Source: Comamonas koreensis (GTDB lineage: Bacteria > Pseudomonadota > Gammaproteobacteria > Burkholderiales > Burkholderiaceae_C). Taken from it: DNA of 64,000 nt. The position numbers were made by a program, and so were the translations under genes. Of this stretch, positions 3,779 through 30,284 are shown piece after piece. The DNA lies in the NCBI RefSeq assembly GCF_014076495.1, contig NZ_CP043575.1, positions 4,712,001 through 4,776,000 on the forward strand, given 5' to 3'. Numbering within the stretch: position 1 is the stretch's first letter; every line of letters begins with the position of its first letter. The notes under the pieces are model-generated. The model saw only the letters and a list, made by a program, of their open reading frames with translations, searched no databases and was not told where the DNA came from.

Positions 3779-4835
3779 ACGCCTGCACCTGTCCCGCTGC
3801 CAAACGGCGCGCCATCTGCACCGCCGCGATCAGGCTGGCCGCATCGGCCAGGCCCTGGCCGGCAATATCAAAGGCGGTGCCGTGGTCCGGGCTGGTGCGC
3901 ACCAGCGGCAGGCCCAGGGTCACGTTGACGCCCTCGTCCAGCCCCAGGTACTTCACGGGGATCAGGCCCTGGTCGTGGTACATGGCCACCACCACATCAA
4001 AGGCGCCCGGGTGCTCGGCACTGTGGCGGGCCCGCATGAACACGGTATCGGGCGGCTCCGGCCCCACCACCTGCATGCCCAGTGCCTGGGCAGCGGCCAC
4101 CGCGGGCGCAATGTGCTCCAGCTCCTCGCGCCCCATCAGGCCGGCCTCACCGGCATGGGGATTGAGCCCCGCTACCGCAATCCGGGGCGGCCGCCCCAGC
4201 ACCCGCAGCAAGGCCTCGTGCGTGATGCGGATGGTCTCCAGCACCTGTGCCTGGGTCACCGCCTCAATGGCGTCACGCAGCGATACATGGATGCTCACCA
4301 GCACGGTGCGCAGCGCCTCGTTGGCCAGCATCATGCGCACCGGCATCTGCGCCAGCAGCAGCCCGGCGTGCTGGGCCGCTTCGGCCTGCAGCAGCTCGGT
4401 GTGGCCGGGGAACGCCAGCCCTGCCAGATGCAGCGCCTCCTTGTTCAGCGGCGCCGTCACCAGCCCGGCAATCTGGCCATGCAAGGCCTGGCGCGCCGCC
4501 CAGCGCACGCATTCGGCAGCAGCACGCCCGGCCTCGGCCTGCACCTGGCCAAAGGGCAACGGCCCGGGCAAGCCCGGCAGCGACAGCACCGGCATGCAGC
4601 GCGGCGGCACCTGCAAAGCCTCTTGCGGGTCAGCGATGTCGGCCACCGGCAGCGCGCAGCGGCCCGGGCCCTGCAACAGCTGCGCTGCGCGGCGCATGGT
4701 CTGCAGCTCACCCACCACAAAGCAGCCCTGCATTTGCTCAGGCGCATCGCGAAAGGCCTTGGCCACGATTTCCGGGCCAATGCCGGCAGGGTCGCCCTGG
4801 GTGATGGCGAGCAAGGGAGCGGAGTGCACGGGCAT
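3777..4835 (-). CDS. pdxA: 4-hydroxythreonine-4-phosphate dehydrogenase PdxA
   Basis: PdxA (352 aa) oxidises 4-phosphohydroxy-L-threonine in DXP-dependent pyridoxal phosphate synthesis. Family motifs are present: the N-terminal ITQGDPAGIGPEI, the metal-ligand motif FPGHTELL, and AMYHDQGLIPVKYLG plus TSPDHGTAFDIAG near the C-terminus. The ATG at 4835 is preceded by CCAAGGAC, a good Shine-Dalgarno, and fits the family N-terminus. The open frame extends upstream into the NIF3 gene without homology. It follows the NIF3-family gene by 19 bp on the same strand, probably as a two-gene operon. Confidence 0.95.
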   Translation of the reverse strand: MPVHSAPLLAITQGDPAGIGPEIVAKAFRDAPEQMQGCFVVGELQTMRRAAQLLQGPGRCALPVADIADPQEALQVPPRCMPVLSLPGLPGPLPFGQVQAEAGRAAAECVRWAARQALHGQIAGLVTAPLNKEALHLAGLAFPGHTELLQAEAAQHAGLLLAQMPVRMMLANEALRTVLVSIHVSLRDAIEAVTQAQVLETIRITHEALLRVLGRPPRIAVAGLNPHAGEAGLMGREELEHIAPAVAAAQALGMQVVGPEPPDTVFMRARHSAEHPGAFDVVVAMYHDQGLIPVKYLGLDEGVNVTLGLPLVRTSPDHGTAFDIAGQGLADAASLIAAVQMARRLAAGQVQA

Positions 4836-13265: not shown

Positions 13266-13655
13266 TTATTTGTAGATCGATTCCGGGTCTTTCAAGACCG
13301 GGTCAACCGCTTGCCACTGGCCATCGCGCAACACGCTGTAAAAACAGCTGTGGCGCCCGGTATGGCAGGCAATGCCCGGCTCATGCCCGGTCTGGGTCAC
13401 GCTCAGCAGCACCACATCGTTGTCACAGTCGATGCGGATCTCATGCACGGTCTGCACATGGCCGGACTCCTCGCCCTTGAACCACAGTTTGCCGCGCGAG
13501 CGGCTGAAGTACACCGCCCGGCCCAGCTCGGCCGTATGGGCCAGCGCTTCGCGGTTCATCCAGGCAAACATCAGCACATCCTTGGAGTGCTGCTCCTGCG
13601 CAATGACGGGCACCAGGCCCTGCGCGTCCCATTTCACTTGATCGAGCCAGTTCAT
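13266..13655 (-). CDS. hisI: Phosphoribosyl-AMP cyclohydrolase HisI
   Basis: HisI (129 aa) opens the adenine ring of PR-AMP in step three of histidine synthesis. The metal-binding block [15 protein letters not shown] and the zinc Cys motif [13 protein letters not shown] are present, as is the N-terminal [15 protein letters not shown] 13655 gives the family start NWLDQVKWD. In other Burkholderiales hisI follows hisF directly. Here the 14-kb giant gene and its terminator lie between them, leaving 58 bp between terminator and ATG for a promoter. Confidence 0.96.
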
Positions 13656-13774: not shown

Positions 13775-16700
13775 TCAGTCCTGGGGACGACGGCCCTGGC
13801 GCTGTGGCAGGGCCTTGCCCGCCAACAGCATCAACAGCAGCGCCATCAAGGCCATGGCCCATGCCGCATTCACAGGCACCCGCTTGACATCCGTTGGCGG
13901 GGTGTTGATAAACACCGCCGACGCGGAGGCCTCGCTATTGGCGGCCGAAGGATCAAACACATCGCTGCTGGCGCGGGTCGTGATGGTGATAGCAGCGGTC
14001 GAGGTCGGCGTGAACTTGGTAGTACAGGTGATCGACTCACCCACTGCCAGTGCCGCCACCGGCTGGGTCGGCGTGCAGACAGTCACCGCACCGGCAGGCG
14101 CGCCGCTGACGTCACAACGTGCATTGGTCGCCGTGGCTGGCCCTGCATTGCGGCAGATGGAAGTCAGCGTGAACTCCACACCCACCTTCGCATCGATGGT
14201 TGCAGGCATGCTCACTTGCATATCGGCAGCTTGCGTCGGCGTACTGACCGAGCAGGCGGCGCTGCAGCTGCCCGCTGCACTGCTGCCTACGGTGTTGACC
14301 ACATTGGGGCTGGTCACCGCGTCGTCCACGCGCACCGTGTACTCAAAGGCCACCGTTCCCGGCGCTTGTGGGCTGCCGCCCGGCACCGTCGCTGGCTGCG
14401 TGCAGCTGCTACCTGCGGCCACGCAACCCGCCGTCCAGCCTTCGTCCGCGCCGACATAGCGGGTACCCGCAGGCACCGTCTCCGTCAACACCGTCGAGCC
14501 AGGCGTGCCGCCCGTGTTGCTGACCTGCACCTGGTAGGTCAGCTTGTCACCGGGCTTGATCACATAGCCTGCAGGCACAGGCGCATCGTTGACCTTCACC
14601 AGCACATTCGTCACCGTCACGGCCGATGGTGTGTTGCCGTTGACGGCCTTGGCATCGCTGTTGTTGGCGGTGTCGCTTTCGTAGCTTTGCGTTGCTGCCG
14701 TCATGCTGGCGCTGATCGCACCCTCTGCCGCAGCAAAGGTCGCCGTGCAGCTGAGACTTCCGCCTACCGCCAGGTTGGTGTTGGCATCGCAGATTGCGGC
14801 AATGCTCGCGCCACCATTGTTCACGGTCATCACGCAGCTTGCATTGAGGGCCTCCACCGGTCCATTGTTGGTGCACTGGCCAGTGATAGTGATGCTTTGA
14901 CCCACCACCACGGCGCCAGACGGGATCGTCGTGATCTGCGCTTGCATGTCCGCCACGGCATTGGCCGTCTCTGCTGTGCAGCCACCGGCCGCGCAAGCGG
15001 CTGGCACATCGCTGGTCACCGTATTGATGATCTTGCCGCTACTGGTCGCAGGCGCAAGCACCTCCACCGTGAACGCAACGGTCTCCTCACCTGCCACACC
15101 TTCTGCGCTTTGCGCGGGCACCGTCAGGCTTTGCGTGCAGGTGCTGGCCGCTGCATCGCAAGCCTGTGGAGCCGGGCTCCAGCCCTGGTCGGGGTTGGAG
15201 GCACCGCCGCCGACAAACTTGGTGCCTTCTGGCACAGTCTCGGTCAGCTCCATGGTGCTGGCAGTACCGCCCGCATTGGTCACCCGCAGGTGGTAGGTCA
15301 GCGTGTCGCCGATCTTGGCTGCGTAGTTGGCGGGGACTGCCGCACCGTTGACTTGCGCCAGGGTCTTGGCGATGTTCAGCTCCGCCGGCGTGTTGACCTT
15401 GACGGTCCTCGTCGCCGTGTTGTTGCCCGGTGCGCCATCGTACAAGTCATTGCTGGTGGACACGCTGACCGCATAGTCACTGGCCGCGCTTGGCGTGAGC
15501 TTGGTGGTGCAGGTGATGCTGTCGCCCGATGCCAGCGTTGCGGCTGGCGTCGTTGGTGTGCAAGTCGTCACTGCACTGGCAGGAGCAGTCACCACGCAAG
15601 CCGCGTTCAAGGCCGTTTGCGGGCCATTGTTCTTGCAGATGCTGGTGTAGATCAGTTCAACACCGGTCGTGCTGGTCATTCCCGGCGTCACGGTCACGGT
15701 GGCCTGCATGTCTGCATGCTGCGTGCCGGTGGTCACCTGGCAGCTGCTGCAGCTGCCGACACTGCTGGTAGCCGTGTCAACGATGCTCGCCGTGCTGCCA
15801 GGGCCGGCCACGGTGACAGTGTAGGTAACGGTGCTCGTTTGGCCCGCGCCCACTGCCACCGTCTGGCTGCAGGTGCTGGAAGCCGCAGCACAACCTGCAC
15901 TCCAACCCTCACCCGTGCCGGTGTAGGTGGTACCTGCTGGCACGGTCTGGCCGACATCGGTGCTGGCGGCCGTGCCGCCGCTGTTCACCACCGTCACGGT
16001 GTAGGTCAAAACATCACCGGGCTTGACCAGATAACCGGCCGGCACTGCTGCGCCGTTCACGGCGGTCAACACATTGGTGGTCACCAGGCTGGCTGCGGTG
16101 TTACCCACCGTCGACTTGGTGTCCATGTTGTTGGCCGTGTTGCTTTCATAGCTTTGCGTTGCTGCGTTGATGGTCGCACTGATGTCGCCTTGGGCTGCAG
16201 TGAAGGTAGCCATACAGCTGATGCTCTCGTTCATTGCCAGATTCGCGTTCGCACCACAGGTCGCAGCAATGCTGGTCCCGCCGTTGTTCACGGTCATCGC
16301 GCAGCTGGCGTTGACCGCATTGGCCGGGCCATTGTTGGTGCACAGGCCGGTAATGGTCACGCTTTGACCCACCACCACAGCCGAGGCTGGGATGTTGGTG
16401 ATCTGCGCTTGCATGTCCGCGACGGCGTTGGCGGTCTCCACCGCGCAGGTGTTGCCTGCGCAAGCAGCTGGAATGTCGCTCACAACCGTGTTGGTGATCT
16501 TGCCGTTGCTGGTCGCAGGCGCTATCACTTCCACCGTGAACTCAAGCGTTTGCTCACCAGGCACAGCAGGAGTCGCTGTGCTCTGTGCTGGCACCGTCAC
16601 GCTCTGCGTGCAGGTGCTGGCTGCTGCCGCGCAAGCCTGTGGCGCCTGGCTCCAGCCTTGTTCAGGATTCGAAGCTCCACCGCCCACAAACTTGGTGCCT

Positions 16701-19700
16701 TCTGGCACGGTCTCGGTCAGGACCGTGGTTCCCGCAGTGCCGCCGGTGTTGGTGACCAAGATGGCGTAGGTCAGCGTGTCACCAATCTTGGCGGCATAGT
16801 TGGCAGGCACAGCAGCGCCGTTCACTTGCGCCAAGGTCTTGACGATATGCAGATCTGCAGGTGTGTTCACCTTGACGGTAGTCGTAGCTGTGTTGTTACC
16901 TGCCGAGGCGTCATACAAGGTATTGCTGGTAGCTACGCTCACCGCATAGTCACCGGCTGCACTAGGCGTAAGCTTGGTGGTGCAGGTGATGCTGTCACCC
17001 GATGTCAGCGTTCCTGCTGGCGTCGTAGGCGTGCAAGTCGTCACTGCACCGGCAGAAGCGGTCACCACGCAGGCTGCGTTCAAGGCCGTTTGTGGGCCAT
17101 TGTTCTTGCAGATGCTGGTGTAGATCAGTTCCACACCAGTCGTGCTGGTCGCGCCTGGCGTCACGGTCACGGTGGCCTGCATATCTGCATGCTGCGTGTC
17201 AGTGGTGACTTGGCAAGTCGTGCAGGTACCTACCGAGCTGGTAACCGTATCAACGATAGTGGCTGTGCTTCCTGGGCTGGCAACGGTCACCGTGTACTGC
17301 AGGGTGGTGGTCTGGCCAGCACCGACTGCCACGGTTTGCGCGCACTGCGTGCCCGCTGCCGTGCAACCTGCGCCCCAGCCTTGGCCGGCGCCTGTGTAGG
17401 TCGTGCCTGCGGGTACGGTCTGGCCGACATCGGTGGATCCGGAGGTACCACCACTATTGGTGACGCTGACGGTATAGGTCAGCACATCACCAGGCTTGGC
17501 CAGATAACCAGCGGGTACGGGGCTGCCGTTCACTGCAGTCAAGACGTTGGTGGTAGCCAGGCTGGCTGGCGTATTGCCCACCGTGGACTTGGTGTCCGTG
17601 TTGTTGGTGATATTGCTTTCGTAGCTTTGCGTTGCTGCGTTGATGGTCGCACTAATGTCGCCTTGGGCTGCCGTGAAGGTGGCCGAGCAGCTCAGCGTCT
17701 CGCTCACTGCCAAGGTCTTGGCTGCGTCGCAAGTCGCGTTGATAGTGGAACCACCATTGCTGATCACCATCGCGCAACTGGCGTTGAACGCATTGGCTGG
17801 GCCACTGTTGGTGCATAGGCCAGCGATGGTGACGCTTTGACCCACGACTACTGCCGAGGATGGGATGTTGGTGATCTGAGCTTGCATGTCGGCGACGGCG
17901 TTGGTGGTCTCCACCGCGCAGGTGTTGCCTGCGCAAGCAGCTGGGATGTCGCTAGTAACCGTATTGGTGATCTTGCCATTGCTGGTCGCAGGCGCTATCA
18001 CTTCCACCGTGAACTCCACCGTTTGCTCACCAGGCACAGCAGGAGTCGCCGTGCTCTGCGCTGGCACCGTCACGCTTTGCGTGCAGGTGCTGGCTGCCAC
18101 GCCGCAAGCCTCTGGTGTCTGGCTCCAGCCTTGAGTTACATCAGGAGCACTAGCTCCCACAAACTGGGTACCTTCTGGCACGGTTTCGGTCAGGACCGTG
18201 GTGCCCGCAGTGCCGCCCGTGTTGGTGACCAACATGGCATAGGTCAGCGTGTCACCGATCTTGGCGGCGTAGTTGGCAGGCACAGCCGCGCCATTGACCT
18301 GCGCCAGGGTCTTGACGATATGCAAGTCTGCAGGGGTGTTGACCTTCACGGTCGTCGTCGCGCTGTTGTTGCCCGTTGCTGGGTCATACAGGTTATTGCT
18401 GGTCGCAACGCTAACGGCATAGTCACCGGCTGCACTTGGTGTGAGCTTGGTGGTACAGGTAATGCTGTCGCCCGATGCGAGCGTTGCGGCTGGCGTCGTG
18501 GGCGTGCAAGTCGTCACCGCGCCGGCTGGAGCGGTCACCGTGCAAGCGGCGTTCAGGGCCGTCTGTGGGCCATTGTTCTTGCACACGCTGGTGTAGATCA
18601 GCTCCACACCCGTCGTGCTGGTCGTGCCTGGTGTCACCGTCACGGTCGCCTGCATGTCTGCGTGCTGCGTGTCGGTAGTCACCACACAGGTCGTGCACGT
18701 ACCCACTGAGCTGGTGACGGTGTCAACAACAGTGGCGGTCGTACCTGGGCTAGCCACGGTCACGGTGTACTGCACGGTGCTGGTCTGGTTCGCACCCACT
18801 GCCACGGTTTGTGCGCACTGTGTGCCCGCTGCGGTGCAACCTGCGCCCCAGCCTTGGCCGGTGCCTGTGTAGGTCGTGCCTGCGGGTACGGTCTGGCCCA
18901 CGTCGGTGCTGCCAGCAGTGCCGCCGCTGTTCACCACCGTCACGGTATAGGTCAGCACATCCCCGGGCTTGGCCAGGTAGCCAGCTGGCACGGGGCTGCC
19001 ATTGACCAAGGTCAGCACATTGGTGGTTGCCAGGCTGGCTGGCGTATTGCCCACCGTGGACTTGGTGTCCGTGTTGTTCGCAGTGTTGGACTCGTAGCTT
19101 TGCGTCGCTGCGTTGATGGTCGCGCTGATGTCGCCTTGAGCTGCCGTGAAGGTGGCCGAGCAGACCAGCGTCTCGCTTACTGCCAAGGTCTTGGCTGCGT
19201 CGCAAGTCGCGTTGATAGTGGTACCACCATTACTGATCACCATCGCGCAGCTGGCGTTGATCGCATTGGCGGGGCCGCCGTTGGTGCACTGGCCCGTGAT
19301 GGTCACGCTTTGTCCAACGACTACCGCCGAGGATGGGATCGAGGTGATCTGCGCTTGCATGTCCGCGACGGCGTTGGCGGTCTCCACCGAACAAGTACCA
19401 GAGGCACAAGCTGCAGCAATGTCGCTGCTCACGGTATTGGTGATCTTGCCGTTGCTGGTCGCAGGCGCTATCACTTCCACGGTGAACTCCACCGTTTGCT
19501 CACCGGGCACCGCAGGAGTAGCTGTGCTCTGTGCTGGCACCGTCACGCTCTGCGTGCAGGTGCTGGCTGCTGCCGCGCAAACCTGTGGTGCCTGGCTCCA
19601 ACCTTGACTTGGGTTGGTGGCCACGCCCACAAACTTGGTGCCTTCTGGCACGGTTTCGGTCAGGACCGTGGTGCCCGCAGTGCCTCCGGTGTTGGTGACC

Positions 19701-22700
19701 ACCATCGCATAGGTCAGCGTGTCACCAATCTTGGCGGCGTAGTTGGCAGGCACAGCCGCGCCATTGACCTGCGCCAGGGTCTTGACGATATGCAAGTCTG
19801 CAGGGGTGTTGACCTTCACGGTGGTCGTTGCGCTGTTGTTGCCAGTAGCTGCGTCGTACAAGGTGTTGCTGGTCGCAACACTCACCACATAGTCACCGGC
19901 TGCACTAGGCGTAAGCTTGGTGGTGCAGGTGATGCTGTCACCCGATGTCAGCGTTCCTGCTGGCGTCGTAGGCGTGCAAGTCGTCACTGCACCGGCAGAA
20001 GCGGTCACCACGCAGGCTGCGTTCAAGGCCGTTTGTGGGCCATTGTTCTTGCAGATGCTGGTGTATGTCAGCTCAACACCGGTCGTGCTGGTCGCGCCTG
20101 GCGTCACCGTCACAGTGGCCTGCATATCTGCATGCTGCGTGTCGGTGGTGACTTGGCAAGTCGTGCAGGTGCCCACCGAGCTGGTGACGGTATCTACGAT
20201 GGTCGCGGTGCTGCCTGGGCTAGCCACGGTCACGGTGTACTGCACGGTGCTGGTCTGGCCAGCACCGACTGCCACGGTTTGCGCGCACTGTGTGCCCACT
20301 GCTGTGCAACCTGCGCCCCAACCTTGGCCGGTGCCCGTGTAGGTCGTGCCTGCCGGTACGGTCTGGCCCACGTCGGTGCTGCCAGCAGTGCCGCCGCTGT
20401 TCACCACCGTCACGGTGTAGGTCAGCACATCACCGGGCTTGGCTAGGTAGCCAGCTGGCACGGGGCTGCCATTGACCAAGGTCAGCACATTGGTGGTCGC
20501 CAGGCTGGCTGGCGTGTTGCCCACCGTGGACTTGGTGTCCGTGTTGTTCGCAGTGTTGCTTTCATAGCTTTGCGTTGCCGCGTTGATGGTCGCGCTGATG
20601 TCGCCTTGGGCTGCGGTGAAGGTAGCCGTACAGCTGATGCTCTCGTTCATTGCCAGATTTGCGTTCGCACCACAGGTCGCAGCAATGCTGGTTCCGCCGT
20701 TGTTCACGGTCATCGCGCAGCTGGCGTTGACCGCATTGGCCGGGCCATTGTTGGTGCACAGGCCAGTGATGGTGACGCTTTGACCCACGACTACTGCCGA
20801 GGATGGGATCGAGGTGATCAGCGCTTGCATATCGGCAACCGCATTCGCAGTTTCAACCGAGCAAGTACCAGAGGCGCAAGCAGCTGGAATGTCGCTCACA
20901 ACCGTGTTGGTGATCTTGCCGTTGCTGGTCGCAGGCGCAATCACTTCCACCGTGAACTCAAGCGTTTGCTCACCAGGCACAGCAGGAGTCGCCGTGCTCT
21001 GCGCTGGCACCGTCACGCTCTGCGTGCAGGTGCTGGCTGCTGCCGCGCAAACCTGTGGTGCCTGGCTCCAGCTTTGACTTGGGTTGGTGACCACGCCCAC
21101 AAACTTGGTGCCTTCCGGCACGGTTTCGGTCAGGACCGTGGTACCCGCAGTGCCGCCCGTGTTGGTGACCAAGATGGCATAGGTCAGCGTGTCACCGATC
21201 TTGGCGGCATAGTTGGCCGGGACTGCCGCGCCATTGACCTGCGCCAGGGTCTTGACGATATGCAAGTCTGCAGGGGTGTTGACCTTCACGGTGGTCGTTG
21301 CGCTGTTGTTGCCAGTAGCTGCGTCGTACAAGGTGTTGCTGGTAGCTACGCTCACCGCATAGTCACCGGCTGCACTTGGTGTGAGCTTGGTGATGCAGGT
21401 GATGCTGTCAGCCGATGCCAGCGTTGCGGCTGGTGTCGTTGGTGTACAAGTCGTCACTGCACCGGCAGGAGCGGTCACCGTGCAAGCGGCGTTCAGTGCC
21501 GTTTGCGGGCCGTTGTTCTTGCAGATGCTGGTGTAGGTCAGCTCAACACCGGTCGTGCTGGTGTTACCAGGGCTGACCGTGACAGTGGCTTGCATATCTG
21601 CATGCTGCGTGTCGGTGGTGACTTGGCAAGTCGTGCAGGTGCCCACCGAGCTGGTGACGGTGTCCACAATGGTCGCGGTGCTGCCTGGGTTAGCCACAGT
21701 CACCGTGTACTGCACGGTGCTGGTCTGGTTCGCCCCCACTGCCACGGTTTGCGCGCACTGCGTGCCCGCTGCCGTGCAACCTGCACCCCAGCCTTGGCCG
21801 GAACCTGTGTAGGTCGTGCCTACTGGCACGGTCTGGCCGACGTCGGTGCTGCCGGCGGTACCACCACTGTTGGTGACGCTGACTGTATAGGTCAGCACAT
21901 CACCGGGCTTGGCCAGGTAGCCCGCTGGCACGGGGCTGCCGTTCACGGCGGTCAATACATTGGTGGTGGCCAGGCTCGCCGGTGTGTTGACCGACAGACT
22001 GTGGCTTGCGCAAGCAGTCGTGCCGCTGCTCACGCAGGTGACACTGGGGTCCACGCCCGGAGCGCCCGAGCCCGTGGGATTGGTAGCAGCGTTGTTGACG
22101 ACGGTACCACCGCTACTTGGCAAGGTGACGGTCAGCTCGATGCTGGCCGATGCACCGGCTGCCAGCGGGCTGGCAACGGTACAGGTCAGCAAGGCAGCGG
22201 CACTGCTGGGGAGCGCGCCGCAGCTGGCGCCAGTCACGGCAGTGGCCACCACGCCTGCAGGCAGCTTGTCCTTGACGATCAGGTTGCTGCCGGTGGCCAG
22301 TTGGCCACTGTTGCTCAGGGTCAGCGTGTAGACATAGCTGGAGCCAGTCAGCGCCGTGGCTGCGCCCGTCTTGCTCAGGCTGACATTGGCGGGAGTGCTG
22401 ACGGCGGCCGTCGCGCTGGCGCACACCACATTGGCCGCATTGGTACAGGCCGGGCCAGGGTCCACACCGGGATTGCCGCTGCCCGATGGATGGGTCGCCG
22501 CATAGTTGACGACATTGCCACCGCCATTGGGCATGGTCACCGTCAGCTGGATGCTGGCAGAGCCGCCATCCGCAGCGATCGGATCGCTGACGGTACAGGT
22601 CAGCAAGGCACCTGCCGCACTGGGCAAGGTGCCGCAGTTGGCACCGGTAACGGCCGTGGCCACCATGCCGGTGGCGAGCTGGTCGCGCACCACCAGGTTG

Positions 22701-25700
22701 GAGGCCGTGGCGGTCTGGCCGCTATTGCTCAGCGCCAGCGTATAGACATAGCTGTTGCCAGACACGGCAGTGGCTGCGCCGGTTTTGGCCAGGCTGACAT
22801 TGGCCGGGGTCTTGACGGCAACCGCACCGGTGGTGGGGTCGCAGGTCTCCGTGGTCGCTGCAGCCGTACAGCTGGGATCACCGCCACCGCCCAGATTGGC
22901 GGTGTTGGCAGCGCCAGCGCTGGTGGCCGATGATGCCACCGACACGGGAATGGTCAGCACATAGCTGCCATCGGCCAGGCCGCTGGCCAGTTGGCAAGCA
23001 CCAATGCTGCTGCCACTGCTGCTGCAACCGCTCAAGGTCGCGGCACCACTCACGCTGGGCGCGCCTGACAAGGTCACGCCAGCGGGCAGGCTGTCGGCAA
23101 TGCTGATCGCGGCGGTGGTGGGCCCATTGGCCACACCAATGGTGATGCGGTAGCTCTGGCCGCTGGCACCCACGACAAAGCTGGTCGGCGATGCGGCCTT
23201 GGTCACGCTGAGCTTGGGGTAGACCGGCGTATTGGTAAAGGTACAGCTGATGTCATCACCGGCTTGGGGCACAACGGTGATGGAGGTGCCTCCACCCGAG
23301 GGCACACTGGTGCCACCCGCCGTCGCATTGGTACAGCTGTAGGTGGTGGTGTAACGGGCCAGGTTGGCCGCTGGCGAGCCAGCGGCAGTTTCGGTCAGCA
23401 GGTAGCTGGTGCCGGCCGTCGCGGTGGCCGGGCCTGCCGAAGCCGTGGTTTGTGTGCCGCTGGTCGTGGCGCTAGGGCCACCGTTGTTGATGCCTACAGT
23501 GAACTGGTCGGTGCCGAGAATGCGGCCCGCCACGACGGTGTTGACCGTCAGCTTGGGCGCAATGGCGCTGTTGCTGAAGGTACAGCTGATGTTGTCGCCC
23601 GCCTGAGGGGTCAGGTTGAAGCTGGTGCCCGTGCCCGCAGGCATGGTGGTGCCGGCAACGCCCGTGTTGGTACAGCTGTAGCTGCTGTTGTAGCGCGTCA
23701 AGTTGGCGCCAGCGGCTGCCACTTCATTCAGTGTGTAGCTGGTGCCGGCGGTGGCCGTGTAGGTCGTGGTGCTGGCCGAGGTTGCCGTGCCGGTGGTCGA
23801 TGCCGTGGGGCCACCATTGCTGATGGCGATCGTGAACTGGTCCGAGGCCAGTGCGCGCGAGGCAATGCTCTTGACCAGGGTCAGGCGCGGCGCGATCGGG
23901 GTATTGCTGAACGTACAGGTGATGGCATCGCCCGCCTGCGGGGTCACATTCACGGTGGTGCCAGTGCCCGGCGCCACCGAGGTGCCGCCTGCGGTGGCAT
24001 TGGTACAGGCGTAGGTGGTGGTGTAGCGCGCCAGGTTGGCCGTGCCGGCAGCCGTTTCGCTCAGTGCATAGCTGGTGCCCGGCGTTGCCGCGAAGGCAGC
24101 GGTGCTTGCGCCGGTGGCCGTGCCCGAGGTCGTCGCAGTGGGGCCGTTGCTGATGGCCACGGTGAACTGGTCGGTACTGGCGGCACGGCTTGCCACGTTG
24201 GCAACCACCGTCAAGGTGGCCGATGGCACCACCGGGATCGAGTCCGTGGCGCAACCGACGGTCGGCGTATTGAGCGCGGTACAGGCCGCCGCCGCCGTGC
24301 TGGTGGGATAGCTGCTGGTGGTGGGGTCGGTGTTGTCGGTACCCACCTGCGCCTTGTTGACCAAGGTGGTGCTGGTGGTCGCCGAGACCGTGGCAGTCAC
24401 GGCGATGGTGGCGCTGGTGCTGGCGGCCAATGCGCCGCCAGTGTTGTTGCAGGTCAGCACATTGCTGTCAGCGCCCGAGCCCATCGCACAGGTAAAGATA
24501 CCCTGGGTGGCGTTCACGGTGAAATTGCTGAGCCCCGCGGGGAACACATCGACCACGCGCACGGTATTGGCCAAGGCCTCGGCGGTCGCGGAGTTGGCGA
24601 CCGTCAGCGTAAAGGCCACCGTATCGCCAGGCGCCTTGCTCTGGGGATTGGCGTGAACCTTGGTCAGCCGCAGCGTCGGCGGTGTTTGCGCCGTGTTCAG
24701 ATCGATGGCGCAACCGGCTGGAATGCTGTTGTTGGTACAGGCACTGACCTGCGCGGTCGTGGGCGAGGTCGTAGCCAGCGTGGCGTCTCCGCCGCCGCCC
24801 ACGCGCGCCTTGTTCATGTACTGGTCGCCGCTGGTCATCGCGCCCGCATTGGCCAGCAGGCTGAACTGGCTCACGCCGCCCGCCGCAATCGCGGTGGTCG
24901 AGGTACAGCTGACTTCCGTGTTGCTGACCCGGGTGCAGGTCCAGTCTGCGGCATTGGGGCCGGTCTTGGTGAGTGCAGCAGGCCAGTTCATCGGCGTGGG
25001 CAGCACATCGCGGAAGCTGATGGTGCCTACAGAGTTGGCGTCACCGGTGTTGCTGACCCGGAAAGCATAGGTCGTCGTGCCACCCACATAGATGCCAAAG
25101 CGGCCATCGTCCTTGGTCAGGCTCAGCTGCACACGCTTGACCGAATCGGTATCTGCCGCGCAGCCCGTGGCGATTTCAGAAGCCATCGCCGGAGAGCAGG
25201 TTTGCGTAGTGGCCACCGTGGGCGCATTGGGTTTGCTGGAATCACTGCCACCGCCAACGCGGGCGAGGTTGACCAAGGCGCTGGGCGCGGTACTGGCAAC
25301 CGAGACCGGCAGCGAGATAGCGGCGTTGTCCCCGGCTGCAATCGGTGTGGAGCGGGTACAGCTGAAGCTTGTGGTGCCCGAGGTGTAGGTACAGCTAAAG
25401 CCGCCGCTGGTGAAGCTCGTTGCACCGGTATAGGTCATGCCCGTAGGCAGCACATCCACCACGGTGATTGTGCCCGCCGTGGGCGCATTGCCGACGTTGC
25501 TGACGGTCAACGCATAGGTGGTCGTCCCGCCGGCCAGCACCACATCGGTGTTATCGCTATTGGTGAGGCTGAGCAACGGCGAGTTCACCGCATCCACGTC
25601 AACGGCACAGCCTGCCGGGGACTGATTGCCGGTGCAGGCGTCCACCGCAGTTTCGGTAGGCGCACTGCCATTGAGCGGGTCACCGCCACCACCGATTTTT

Positions 25701-27772
25701 GCCCGGTTGGTGGCGATGGTACCCGTCGCTGTCTGCAGGCCAACATTGACCGTCACACCGAATACACTGCTGCCGCCTGCCGCGATGGCGGTGGAACTGG
25801 TACAGGTGATCACCCCGCCTCCTGCCGCGCCAGAACAGCTCCAGTTGGCGGCGTTGGCGCCCGTCAGTGGCACGGCGCCCGCAGGAATCGTCACGCCCTG
25901 CGGCAGCTTGTCCACCACAGTGATCGTACCGCTGGAGGGAGACGCACCTACATTGCTGGCGGTCAGCGTGTAAGTCGTTGACCCGCCAGCATTCACGATA
26001 TTGGCGCCATTGCTCTTGGTCAGGCGCAGGTCGATCGCGCAGGCAGCACCAGGCATGGTGCCCGGTGCACTGGGTGATTGGAACGAGGCAATGCCCCCTT
26101 GGTTGCCAAAAGCGCCATAGTTGTCGGTGGTGCCGTTGGTGGTGTAGCCCGGTGTGCCGCCGTTGATGGTGGTGGTAACCACCATGCTGGACGGAGAAAA
26201 AGCGATAAAGCCCCCACCGCCCCCGCCACCAGGGCCATGGCGGTTGCCCGCATTGGTCTGGTTGCCGGCCCAGGCGTTGCCGCCATCACCACCGCTGGCG
26301 TCGATCACCGCAGAGCCACCCTCGAGCGTGTGGATCACCACCGAGCCACCTGCACCGCCGCCGCCCGCCGCATCGTTTTGCACGTTGTAGCCATTGGCGC
26401 CGCGCACATCGATCACGCCGGTACCGGCGAGATTTTGCGCACGCAAAATAACAATGCCGCCGCCAGAGGCGCCGGAGGAGCAGCGGCCGCCCGTATCCGA
26501 GCAGGCAATGCCGTTGTTGCTGTAGGCCGTGTTGTCGGCGGTTCCATCATTGGTGCCACCTGCACCGCCACCACCGCCCAGGAAGATGCGGTTGAAAGCA
26601 GTGGTGCCTACATAGCCGCCGCCGCCGCGGCCTCCGCTGTCAACCAGCGGGTAGTTCCAGGGCCGGCCACCGACACCACCAGCGGCATAGTTGCCCCCGC
26701 CGCCGCCGCCCGAATTGAACTGGCCGTTGTTGGTGCCCGAAGGCGCGCCATCAGCACCACCACCGCCCGCGTTGCCCGGCGCGCCGCGTGCACGCGATCC
26801 ACCTGGGTAGCCTTCTACGCTGTTGTCTACCGACGTGATGCCGTTCGCCGCTACCGCATTGACCGTCTTGGATCCATAGTTCGTGACCTTGTTGGCCATA
26901 TAGCGAGGGGTCCCGGCAATGCCCTCTCCCTTGCCGCCGCCGCCACCTGCAGTGGCATAGGTTCCCATCCAATCCTCTCGTGAGCCCTGGACCGAGCCAT
27001 TGCTGCCCACTGCACCCCGAAAGCCTTTGCCGGCCAGGAAAATCGCACGGTTGGCCTGGCTTTCCACCGTGGCCCCATTGAGGGTCAAGGTATCGCGCGC
27101 ATCGATGGCCACGACGCCACCGGTGGCGCCGTTCCAGGCGGGGGCCGTCACGCCACTTACCGAGGCGCTGGTGTACTGGGGCACCCGCACAACCTGGTAG
27201 GTTTTTTGCCCAGAGGTCGTCGTCGCCACTGCATTGCGGTAGGTATTGGTCAACGCAGGGGAAAACGTCACGGTCGAGCCCGAGACCGACACCACCTTCA
27301 CAAACTCATAAAGACCGGAGCTGCCGACACTGGTCGAGCCCTGACCGCCACTGCCACTGTTGCCGTAAGCGCTGGAATTGACTGCATTGATGCTGGCGTC
27401 CTGCATCTGGATCACCAGCAACAGGTCATTGGCGGCCAGGGTTTTGCCTGCAGCGCCCGCTCTCTGCGTGCCGATGGTCAGACTAGTGCTGCCCGCTGCC
27501 AGCGTCGATGCTGCAGCGCCAGGAAAGTAATCATTCACAATCCCGGTGGCAGCACCCGCACCATCATTGCCCGGTGCCGCACACATCTGCGCCCAAACGC
27601 TGACAGGTAGAAGCAGCAATGCCACCAGCATGGCGGCGCGCGTACGTAACAAACGAAAAGCAGACAGGCAGGCGCACGCCTGCGTAACGCATATCCCAAA
27701 CACCGACATAACCGACAACCCCCAGCCTCTTATGAGCGTCGCCAGGCCCGCGTCGGCAACGCTTTTTCTCAT
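13775..27772 (-). CDS. Giant secreted DUF11-repeat protein (about 4,665 aa)
   Basis: A single uninterrupted frame encodes an exported, repeat-built surface or matrix protein of unknown partner. A hydrophobic signal ([16 protein letters not shown]) is followed by a Gly-rich region (about residues 255-545) with many GGGG runs. Four DUF11-like domains follow (about 575-1185; [20 protein letters not shown] type), then three SpaA-like modules (1186-1519), three further DUF11 domains (1519-1930), five 490-residue tandem units (1930-4385), a half unit, and a C-terminal helix ([18 protein letters not shown]) with a basic end. Cysteines are regularly paired. ATG 27772 has AAGAAAA upstream; TTG 27829 and ATG 27709 are alternatives. 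I see no autotransporter barrel or LPXTG. Terminators flank it, so it is its own unit inside the his locus. Adhesin or biofilm role is inference. Confidence 0.88.
14618..21970 (-). repeat. Five in-frame tandem 1.47-kb units of the giant gene, plus a diverged half copy
   Basis: Using the codons for the [12 protein letters not shown] block as marker, unit boundaries fall at 21971, 20501, 19031, 17558, 16085 and 14618. Spacings are 1470, 1470, 1473, 1473 and 1467 bp, all multiples of three. Each unit holds two related halves of about 245 residues, one starting [11 protein letters not shown] and one [14 protein letters not shown]. Units 1-4 are very similar. Unit 5 and the half copy at 13.9-14.6 kb are more diverged. 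Confidence 0.93.
23215..24215 (-). repeat. Three tandem ~333-bp SpaA/Cna-B-like modules in the giant gene
   Basis: Three consecutive modules of about 111 residues begin [27 protein letters not shown] and [14 protein letters not shown]. Each ends with a GDxIxCTF-(S/T)N motif. The spacing is about 330-335 bp. The pattern resembles prealbumin-like/SpaA domains often found beside DUF11 repeats; the family name is by resemblance only. Confidence 0.7.
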
Positions 27773-27865: not shown

Positions 27866-28300
27866 GCTTGGAATTACCGAGTGTGTTTCAACTTCGGAAA
27901 CATTGTCAATTATTGCAAACTGTCATTTTTGATCGATTAAATCAATCACTTTTGCAGATGCGCAGATCACTAATGACGGCGAGAAAATGAAGGGCTCAGA
28001 ACTGGCCTACCCGCACAGCGCGCAGCTCCCCTTGCTGACGCACCTTGACACCGCGCCGGTGGACCGGGCCCGCAGCCGCTCTGAACGGCCCGCGAATGCA
28101 TAGACCCTAACAATGGCAGGCGACAAGCCCAGGCGCGCCGCCCCGTCGCGGGGGGTGCTTACGGGTAGATACAAGAGCAAGTCAGAAAGAAAAAAGACCC
28201 TGCACCGCCACCAGCACGAGACGGAAGGCTCCAACGCCAGAGATGCCGCCGGCCAAGGGCCCGTTGGCAGGCCGGGCAGCCGGGGCAGGAGCCAGAAACA
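27866..28300. other. Intergenic region between the giant gene and hisF, partly AT-rich
   Basis: Bases from about 27,830 to 27,990 are strikingly AT-rich with several A/T tracts and the near-palindrome GATCGATTAAATCAATC. The remainder returns to GC-rich composition. Small frames on both strands (for example 28007-28234) have no recognisable domain. The region probably holds the control sequences of the giant gene. Confidence 0.5.
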
Positions 28301-28325
28301 GCAACGGCGCCGAAGGCGCCGTTGC
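28301..28325 (-). terminator. Hairpin terminator after hisF
   Basis: A perfect 11-bp stem GCAACGGCGCC/GGCGCCGTTGC with a three-base loop lies 29 bp beyond the hisF stop. On the minus strand it is followed by TGTTTCT, a weak U-tract. It separates hisF from the giant gene. Confidence 0.75.
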
Positions 28326-28354
28326 TGGGGTCAATCCCAGAGTGAAAGCGGTGC

Positions 28355-29134
28355 TTACAGGCGCACGGGGATGCCGCGCTCGCGCATGCGCTCTTTGGCC
28401 TGCTGCACCGTGAACTCGCCGTAGTGGAAGATGCTGGCTGCCAGCACCGCATCGGCGCCGCCCTGCTGCACGCCATCGGCCAGGTGGTCGAGGTTGCCCA
28501 CGCCGCCCGAAGCAATGACGGGCACGCCCACGGCATCGGCCACGGCACGGGTCAGTGCCAAGTCAAAACCGGACTTGGTGCCATCGCGGTCCATGCTGGT
28601 GAGCAAGATCTCTCCGGCGCCGCGCGCGGCCATGTCACTGGCCCAGCGGACAGCGTCCAGCCCCGTGTTCTTGCGCCCGCCGTGGCTGTAGACATCCCAG
28701 CCCTCGCCGCGCTCGATGACATCCTGGCCTTGGCGGCGCTTGGCGTCGATGGCAACCACAATGCACTGCGAGCCGTAGCGATCACTGGCGGCGTTGATGA
28801 CGGCAGGGTCGGCAATGGCCGCAGAGTTGAAGCTGGTCTTGTCGGCACCGGCATTGAGCAGACGCCGCACATCGGCCACGGTGCGCACGCCGCCGCCCAC
28901 GGTCAGTGGAATGAAGACCTGGCTGGCAACAGCTTCGATGATCGGCAAGATCAGATCGCGCCCATCGCTGGTGGCGGTGATGTCCAGAAAGGTCAGCTCA
29001 TCGGCGCCCTGGGTGTTGTAGCGCGCCGCAATCTCCACCGGGTCGCCGGCATCGCGCAGTTCGACAAAATTGACACCTTTGACGACGCGGCCACCGGTCA
29101 CGTCGAGGCAAGGAATGATGCGTTTGGCAAGCAT
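28355..29134 (-). CDS. hisF: Imidazole glycerol phosphate synthase cyclase subunit HisF
   Basis: HisF (259 aa) is the TIM-barrel subunit that joins ammonia from HisH to PRFAR, giving imidazole glycerol phosphate and AICAR. The N-terminal [18 protein letters not shown] with its catalytic Asp, the phosphate loops ([15 protein letters not shown]) and the catalytic [10 protein letters not shown] are intact. ATG 29134 gives the family start. Its partner hisH is about 2.3 kb upstream beyond hisA and a galE-like gene. It is followed by a terminator instead of hisI. Confidence 0.97.
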
Positions 29135-29273
29135 GGAAGATCTCGTGGCAGATGGGAGCGGTGGCAATAACGCCAGACGGGCAAAACGATAACACGCCCA
29201 GCCCTGGCGCGCAGGCTGCGGGCCAGAAAAACGCCTGGCGCGCTTGGGCCGCCAAGCGTTGGATCAGGATCCG

Positions 29274-30284
29274 TCAATGGACGCTGCGGCCGGTGCCAAT
29301 CTGCCAGCGCCAGACATCTTCCATCATGCGGTCCAGACCCAGCTTGGGCTGCCAGCCCAGCTGCGTGCGTGCTTGCGAGATATCCGCCCAGCAGTGCGCT
29401 GCATCGCCTGCGCGGCGTGCACCGATGCGAAAAGGCACGGCACGGCCATTGGCATGCTCGAAAGCGCGCACCAGACCCAGCACCGAGGTAGGCTGGCCCG
29501 AGCCAATATTGAAGCGGGCCAGGCCCGCGTGGCCGCGCAGATACTGCAAGGTAGCGACATAGGCATGGGCCAGGTCCATCACATGCAGGTAGTCGCGCAC
29601 CGGGGTGCCATCGGGCGTCGGGTAGTCGCCGCCATAGATGCGCAAACCATCGCGCTTGCCGGCAGCCACCTGGGCCAGATACGGCGCCACATGGGAAGAC
29701 ATGCGCGGCGGGTCCTCGGCAATCAGACCGCTCTCGTGGCAGCCCACGGCATTGAAGCTGCGCAGCAAAGCCATGCGCCAGCGCTTGGGCGAGGCTTCAT
29801 CCAAGCTGCTGAGCACCTGCTCAACCATCAGGGCCGTCTGGCCATAAGGCGTGCTGGCAGACAACGGTGCGTCTTCACGAACGGGGTGCGGCGCCGGATC
29901 ACCATAGACCACCGACGAGGACGACACCACCAGGTTGCGCAAGCCGGCGGTCTGCATGGCGCGCAGCAGGCCAATGGTGCCCGAGACATTGTTGTCGTAG
30001 TAGCGCAGTGGCTCGCGCGCGGCGTCCGCAGAAGCGGTGAGAAAGGCGCTGTGAATGACCGCATCGAAATGCTGTTCATCGAACAACTGCTCCAGCACCG
30101 CCACGTCGCGCACATCGGCATCGATGCAGGGCGGCGCAAAGCCCAGGATCTTGCCCAGCCGGGTGATGACCGAACGCCTTGCATTGCTGAAGTTATCCAG
30201 AATCAGGAACGGCATGCCGGCTTCAGCCAAGGCAATGCAGATATGAGAGCCAACATAGCCGGCTCCGCCAGTCACGAGTATCAC
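29274..30284 (-). CDS. GalE-like NAD-dependent epimerase/dehydratase lacking the catalytic Lys
   Basis: This 336-aa extended short-chain dehydrogenase is closely patterned on UDP-glucose 4-epimerase: the NAD loop GGAGYVGSH (6-14), LDNFSNA, YYDNNVSGT, SSSSVVYGDP, and the C-terminal GTPVRDYLHVMDLA and FNIGSGQPTSVL. The active-site YxxxK, normally PYGRTK or PYGQSK, reads PYGQTA. Tyr147 is kept but position 151 is Ala (codon GCC at 29832-29834). The region after the conserved His is also altered (HSAFLTASADA instead of HFAGLKAVGES). Epimerase activity is therefore doubtful. It sits between hisA and hisF, upstream of hisF by 139 bp. Confidence 0.85.
   Translation of the reverse strand: MILVTGGAGYVGSHICIALAEAGMPFLILDNFSNARRSVITRLGKILGFAPPCIDADVRDVAVLEQLFDEQHFDAVIHSAFLTASADAAREPLRYYDNNVSGTIGLLRAMQTAGLRNLVVSSSSVVYGDPAPHPVREDAPLSASTPYGQTALMVEQVLSSLDEASPKRWRMALLRSFNAVGCHESGLIAEDPPRMSSHVAPYLAQVAAGKRDGLRIYGGDYPTPDGTPVRDYLHVMDLAHAYVATLQYLRGHAGLARFNIGSGQPTSVLGLVRAFEHANGRAVPFRIGARRAGDAAHCWADISQARTQLGWQPKLGLDRMMEDVWRWQIGTGRSVH

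Follow-up and report, generated by a model that had tools for sequence, protein, structure and literature searches.

The stretch of DNA examined here (the window) comprises 64,000 nucleotides of a Comamonas koreensis genome (contig NZ_CP043575.1, positions 4,712,001 to 4,776,000), and it raises the question of how the product of one giant gene between hisF and hisI would leave the cell, what would hold it there and what purpose it would serve. The explanation favoured here, with a probability of roughly 0.6, is that the giant is a Gram-negative single-chain fibrillar adhesin that is anchored by exosortase H (XrtH), covalently braced and, in the manner of the Periscope Proteins, variable in length. 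A long repeat adhesin is in itself an ordinary idea; less ordinary are the probable exosortase-H anchor, the length steps of four domains and the common chromosomal site that is shared with proteins bearing different heads.

The gene is an uninterrupted frame on the minus strand (27829 to 13775, 4684 residues, zero internal stops) in an assembly that consists of one contig of 5,217,190 bases. A first-pass annotation, made from the sequence alone, had described an unbroken frame of about 4,665 codons, which is confirmed; its first position, 27772, corresponds to an ATG at residue 20. The ATG at residue 41 (window 27709, MSVFGIC) is the first that is common to the relatives and gives a protein of 4644 residues. 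It is the preferred start because the frame opens just seven codons ahead of MSVFGIC in C. koreensis (L113) and 11 codons ahead in Comamonas sp. B21-038 (L114). The same annotation had placed the protein among the largest in the cell, and within the sole comparison set, the frames of the genome with DUF11 matches, it is the longest (a 4715-codon frame there, the next being 3542). The 3542-codon frame (L025:5844-16472; G000:C1:769844-780472) is a second giant DUF11 frame with a different start, and no hydrophobic helix was seen by eye in its last 70 residues.

The guanine-plus-cytosine fractions at codon positions 1-3 are 0.54, 0.62 and 0.74. When compared with C. koreensis (L113), the ratio of non-synonymous to synonymous substitution (dN/dS) was 0.104 both in the 1907 codons that precede the units described below and in the 284 codons that follow them, and 0.071 in the opening 560 codons, which encode the signal peptide and head; these regions overlap. 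Values of 0.09-0.17 were found among the five units of the window. The gene is therefore under purifying selection, and the low dN/dS together with 22 related proteins indicates that the frame is more than chance. That the gene is silent or in decay, or that the frame yields no product, could be argued from the upstream region, where a promoter scan returned no sigma-70-type match, and from the frame of Comamonas sp. B21-038, which is split inside the head (442 + 3407 codons) by natural loss or by sequencing error. No such split occurs in the window, however, and given dN/dS of 0.07-0.10 and the many strains in which long frames share both ends this explanation is scarcely credible.

The anatomy given in the first-pass annotation (signal peptide, Gly-rich head, two DUF11 groups, SpaA-like modules, five tandem units and a C-terminal helix) proved right, and is laid out in Table 1. 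A hidden Markov model scan against Pfam recognised DUF11 at 370 bits, over the cut-off, in 29 stretches and SpaA_3 in three. Only two regions are strongly hydrophobic (mean over 1.6 in a 19-residue span): residues 37-87, the signal peptide region, and 4650-4676. Units 1-4 are mutually 88-93% identical, which lies within the definition of Periscope repeats (tandem repeats over 50 residues, at least 80% identity; PMC8201768), whereas unit 5, at 76-79% to the others, falls short of it. Each unit carries 16 Cys residues, four per domain, which are invariant in an alignment of eight units (five from the window and three from C. koreensis); in the whole frame there are 130 Cys, of which 126 lie after residue 81.

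The Lys, Asp/Glu and Asn residues of intramolecular isopeptide bonds have been described for CLIPPER (DUF11) and SpaA_3 domains (PMC12617251). Of the 21 domains of the giant that were scored, 12 have the full set, the slots being identified from motifs and not from a structure, and 11 further domains giving no readable slot; two marks of CLIPPER domains, DUF11 over the Pfam cut-off and the residue triad, are thus both present. The complete sets lie in 7/10 pre-unit domains (A, C, D, SpaA 2, E, F and G) and in the third domain of all five units, and the Lys is lacking from B, SpaA 1, SpaA 3, the five first unit domains (0/5) and the first final domain (0/1). In the first domain of every unit the slots hold Thr, Gln and Asp (5/5), and these residues, like the Lys, Glu and Asn of the third domains, are invariant in the eight-unit alignment. 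The spacings between slots are 34-37 and 58-68 residues in A-G and 48-49 and 51-53 in the SpaA_3 domains, compared with 33 and 58 calculated from the residue numbers of the CLIPPER structure 9IFR and 55 and 56 in a SpaA_3 example (PMC12617251). This pattern suggests that isopeptide bonds may form in a subset of the domains.

The stalk differs in length among relatives. The 22 proteins that match the C-terminal part of the giant, the window's own included, do so at 83-100% identity, and the named ones are all Comamonas; the C-terminal part of P0005 (Comamonas sp. 23) is 100% identical to that of the window. In one contig scan, the named genomes with the gene were C. koreensis KCTC 12005, Comamonas sp. 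B21-038 and Comamonas sp. BIGb0152. Unit numbers of 3, 4, 5 or 8 were counted across the 22 proteins, which are not a count of strains since some entries start late or share a strain. The clearest comparison is between the window (five units), P0006 (four) and P0013 (three), the latter two from draft assemblies: their heads are 100 and 99.8% identical to that of the window and their C-terminal regions 100%, and they show the differing repeat number by which Periscope Proteins are recognised. Moreover, unit 2 of P0011 is a mosaic, in which blocks 1-2 of five best match window unit 2 and the other three match unit 4. The last unit was separable in three cluster proteins (P0005, P0011 and P0013; in P0006 two units had been merged by the script), and there unit 5 is 98.2-100% conserved. 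The differences in unit number and the P0011 mosaic are as recombination between near-identical units would give, a mechanism that has been proposed for Periscope Proteins (PMC8201768) and that probably operates here.

What would such a stalk carry? The head gave no match in a Pfam scan, but it aligned with the AgmC N-terminal domain model NF047640 over 368/412 model positions (E 8.7e-31, 107 bits). A surface protein serving movement, with an AgmC-type head as in gliding Myxococcus, could be proposed on this basis. The score, however, is far under the cut-off of 275 bits for AgmC membership, and relatives of the head are numerous (2327 proteins at E ≤ 1e-3 among 7986 candidates scored) and include, among the 120 matches listed, named members from Acidobacteria, Cyanobacteria and Xanthomonadales. 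The head domain is therefore no marker of gliding; Comamonas, moreover, swims. A role in motility is thus very unlikely. Among 200 genomes drawn from the family, 16 encode the head, the window's genome included; the best of the others are 56-59% identical in frames of about 1400 codons. In three other genera (L074, L076 and L077) close relatives of the head (46-49% over about 1200 residues) lie just upstream of what appears by eye to be a serine-acetyltransferase-like gene and terminate in VTATGQ without a hydrophobic tail.

An AlphaFold2 model of the head (predicted local distance difference test score, pLDDT, 83; predicted template-modelling score, pTM, 0.91) had matches in the PDB that included capsule lyases as well as the tail and tailspike proteins of phages. 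These matches are weak and fall mostly within model residues 19-140, and a polysaccharide ligand is therefore a guess. They bear on a further alternative, a released or loosely held matrix scaffold resembling CdrA, the head of which would link cells to exopolysaccharide, so that aggregation rather than attachment to foreign surfaces would be the main role. A link between exosortases and the production of exopolysaccharide has been described (PMC11980579), floc formation in Aquincola involves a PEP-CTERM gene (PMC9850573) and CdrA itself has been named a Periscope Protein (PMC8201768). The immediate neighbours of the giant, on the other hand, are hisF and hisI and not an exopolysaccharide gene, a galE-like gene being the next but one, and with the fold matches so limited this scaffold role is possible but rather doubtful. 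Under the favoured explanation, the fibrillar adhesin would bind a glycan or a surface.

As would be expected of an exosortase substrate, the protein carries a signal peptide and a C-terminal tail of motif (read by eye), helix and basic residues. The tail in the window matched NF033207 (midcut_by_XrtH) at E 8e-7 (29.3 bits, model positions 15-68), and this family was the top NCBIfam match for 7/7 tails of giants at hisF-hisI junctions (the window, two each from L094 and L095, L113 and L115, of which three are orthologues of one gene), with E-values of 8e-7, 8e-7, 3.4e-4, 0.012, 3.2e-4, 1.3e-5 and 8.2e-8. The window's genome has a single XrtH match (244 bits), and the general exosortase family model found no other protein there; this XrtH carries AGCNGIE, NIVRV and FAHE; we take the Cys, Arg and His of these motifs to be catalytic. 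XrtH is linked to IPTL tails, and at least 31 matches over the TIGR04174 (IPTL-CTERM) cut-off of 20.5 bits were found in this genome among the best 150 of 179 candidates; the tail of the giant is 56% identical (E 7.5e-4) to one of them. The gene xrtH directly follows a 1447-codon DUF11 frame (L024:4996-10070) with the tail AVPVPALVPGALLLMALAMAGLAALRLGRRR (AVPVPAL...), a weak IPTL match at 17.0 bits, and this frame is likely to encode an XrtH substrate.

The distribution of XrtH points in the same direction. It is present over the cut-off in 22/200 family genomes (27 at E ≤ 1e-3), including all three in which giants were found at hisF-hisI (G000, the window's genome; G018; G147), and it is absent from the 15 other head-bearing genomes of the draw (0/15). 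Ten complete frames were read from 7 of these 15 genomes, and in all of them a stop follows without any hydrophobic tail, no 19-residue stretch of their last 100 residues exceeding a hydropathy of 1.53 (the giant's tail reaches 2.1); in G132 the frame continues into a masked region. Within the genus, XrtH occurs in 15/53 Comamonas genomes, namely 7/7 of those with a match to the giant's C-terminal part (five strong, two weak) and 8/46 others (Fisher p 4e-5). Proteins processed by exosortases stay anchored to the cell surface, and the type II system serves those with related tags (PMC11980579); an S-layer protein with an IPTL-CTERM has been described (PMC8671808). Together, these data suggest that XrtH would cleave the tail and that the giant is probably fixed to the cell in this way.

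A number of observations weigh against this explanation. All seven NF033207 scores (15.6-32.5 bits) lie under the curated cut-off of 45, and the control, in which scrambled tails gave no match, consisted of two hand-made scrambles, each one residue off an exact permutation. A TIGR04174 search of the genome at E ≤ 10 (55 matches among the best 150 of 179 candidates) did not return the giant's tail, nor did a direct NCBIfam scan of the tail list TIGR04174. On a profile of 27 IPTL tails of the same genome it reached 2.3 bits, which placed it 48th among 872 frame ends, and was outscored by 155 of 5000 shuffles of itself; the tail beside xrtH, in turn, has no NF033207 match. The co-occurrence of XrtH within the genus is confounded by descent. 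With respect to the stalk, the model of a single unit gave four all-beta blocks but was poor (pLDDT 62, pTM 0.31), the spacings in the third unit domains (42 and 72-74 residues) are wider than those in 9IFR, and repeat numbers from draft genomes may be assembly errors. The weakness of the fold matches of the head belongs here also. The findings on the tail would suit a fibrillar adhesin that is independent of XrtH, the C-terminal helix being a plain transmembrane anchor or the substrate of another protease, as would the absence of the W from three VPVDSRTM tails (L094 and L095). The match of every tail to an XrtH-linked family, and the presence of XrtH in each of the genomes concerned, make this alternative unlikely.

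If the giant is an XrtH-anchored adhesin, Sec would export it through its signal peptide, the VPVNxxW-helix-basic tail would halt it in the inner membrane, and XrtH would cut off the tail, after which a membrane anchor would hold the protein. Export across the outer membrane would then follow; the type II system is a candidate exporter, and two GspD matches over the cut-off are present in the genome. The Gly-rich beta head would be held away from the cell by a stalk of about 32 immunoglobulin- or prealbumin-like domains, which disulphides and, in some of the domains, Lys-Asn isopeptide bonds would brace. Homologous recombination between the near-identical units of about 1.47 kilobases would change the stalk by one unit per step, and stalk length would in turn set the reach of the head.

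The gene lies within the histidine-synthesis gene cluster, 645 bases after hisF and 119 before hisI, and a hairpin after hisF hints, though it does not prove, that the giant is transcribed from a promoter of its own. In the three named Comamonas genomes hisI is directly next in 3/3 and hisF lies ahead in 2/3, those whose loci reach that far. At the same junction Diaphorobacter sp. HDW4B (G018) carries DUF11 frames of 3464 and 2149 codons, and G147 frames of 1826 and 3151 codons. The tails of all four begin VPV, and the 2149-codon frame is 49-52% identical to the giant's units over two stretches of about 1250 residues; a head profile built from 45 sequences (control 622 bits) found no match in any of the four at E ≤ 10. 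Elsewhere the junction differs: a genome of the same genus (G128) has a 114-base gap with neither the giant nor XrtH, and unrelated genes occupy 4/7 long gaps. From these data we propose, tentatively and at somewhat less than even odds, that in Comamonas and Diaphorobacter the hisF-hisI junction serves as a lasting docking site for XrtH-anchored, covalently braced fibres, which keep their stalk and tail, exchange the head between lineages and are tuned in length by recombination of four-domain units; the giant would then be an exosortase-anchored Periscope Protein, and VPVN/VPVD would mark a sub-class of XrtH signal.

Other genes were observed around this junction. In G022, G150 and G020 (L090, L091 and L092) it holds 9.65-10.8 kilobases of other genes, one of which resembles a peptide-binding protein by eye. 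The galE-like gene (by eye; an NAD-dependent epimerase gene, window 29274-30284, minus strand) lies between hisA and hisF; a relative occupies this position in G018 and in G147, and one lies upstream of hisF in G190.

Table 1. Features of the giant gene and its surroundings (window coordinates; residues numbered from the start of the open frame).
Feature	Coordinates	Strand	Remarks
hisF, upstream neighbour	28355..29167	-	
12-base-pair G+C-rich hairpin after hisF, possible terminator	28300..28326	-	read from sequence; unflagged by scan
Giant gene, most likely coding region (4644 residues)	13775..27709	-	frame open to 27829
Signal peptide, residues 41-81, proposed cut after WAQ	27587..27709	-	hydrophobicity; cut site by eye
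Gly-rich head, residues 82-597, AgmC N-terminal domain relative	26039..27586	-	NF047640 match
DUF11 group 1, four domains (A-D), residues 598-1202	24224..26038	-	boundaries approximate
Three SpaA_3 domains, residues 1203-1537	23219..24223	-	boundaries approximate
DUF11 group 2, three domains (E-G), residues 1538-1949	21983..23218	-	boundaries approximate
Unit 1, 490 residues, four beta domains	20513..21982	-	
Unit 2, 490 residues	19043..20512	-	
Unit 3, 491 residues	17570..19042	-	
Unit 4, 491 residues	16097..17569	-	
Unit 5, 488 residues, cell-proximal	14633..16096	-	
Last two DUF11-type domains, residues 4400-4643	13901..14632	-	by eye, boundaries approximate
Sorting tail, VPVNAAW + hydrophobic helix + basic end, residues 4644-4684	13778..13900	-	NF033207 match
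hisI, downstream neighbour	13266..13655	-	

Exosortase H and its tails seem to be known mainly as family models, and the enzyme is little studied. No account of this giant gene appeared among the papers listed by literature searches; among the matches listed for exosortase or XrtH none was on XrtH by title or opening of the abstract, and those listed for exosortase with Comamonas or with DUF11 likewise included none on XrtH. The giant is a candidate XrtH substrate, and its forms with the same ends and three, four or five units in near-identical strains constitute a natural length series, in which one could measure anchoring by XrtH and see how stalk length affects aggregation. If the favoured explanation is true, length-variable adhesins would be extended to an exosortase anchor.

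How, finally, does the giant compare with known systems? The first-pass annotation held that it fitted no classical adhesin class and left its secretion route open. The first statement stands in so far as no autotransporter, TPS or RTX domain was found in Pfam or NCBIfam at E ≤ 1, but it missed that the C-terminal helix resembles a sorting tail of the exosortase type, and both fibrillar adhesins of variable length and stalks built of DUF11 domains have already been described (PMC8201768, PMC12617251). To the second the tail gives a provisional answer, XrtH, at a score below the family cut-off. With AgmC, an adventurous gliding protein, the giant shares an alignable N-terminal domain, under the equivalog cut-off. 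With the XrtH/IPTL-CTERM system it shares the tripartite tail and a genome that encodes XrtH and IPTL proteins, but its motif is VPVN in place of IPTL; the 175-position midcut-by-XrtH model extends past the matched region, whereas the giant ends there. The CLIPPER adhesin B9T28_05395 of Acinetobacter silvestris (9IFR) has an OmpA-like anchor, unlike the exosortase-type tail of the giant, and lacks its SpaA_3 domains and long near-identical units. The Periscope Proteins (SasG, Rib and Sgo_0707, and the Gram-negative CdrA and inverse autotransporters) resemble the giant in their tandem stalk repeats of high similarity, in a repeat number that varies between close strains and in an N-terminal functional domain (PMC8201768, PMC9704523). 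The word 'exosortase' is absent from the text of PMC9704523, and the anchors named for the Periscope Proteins in these texts are sortase attachment and inverse-autotransporter barrels; the giant differs from them in its exosortase-like tail and in its repeating step, a four-domain unit of about 490 residues.

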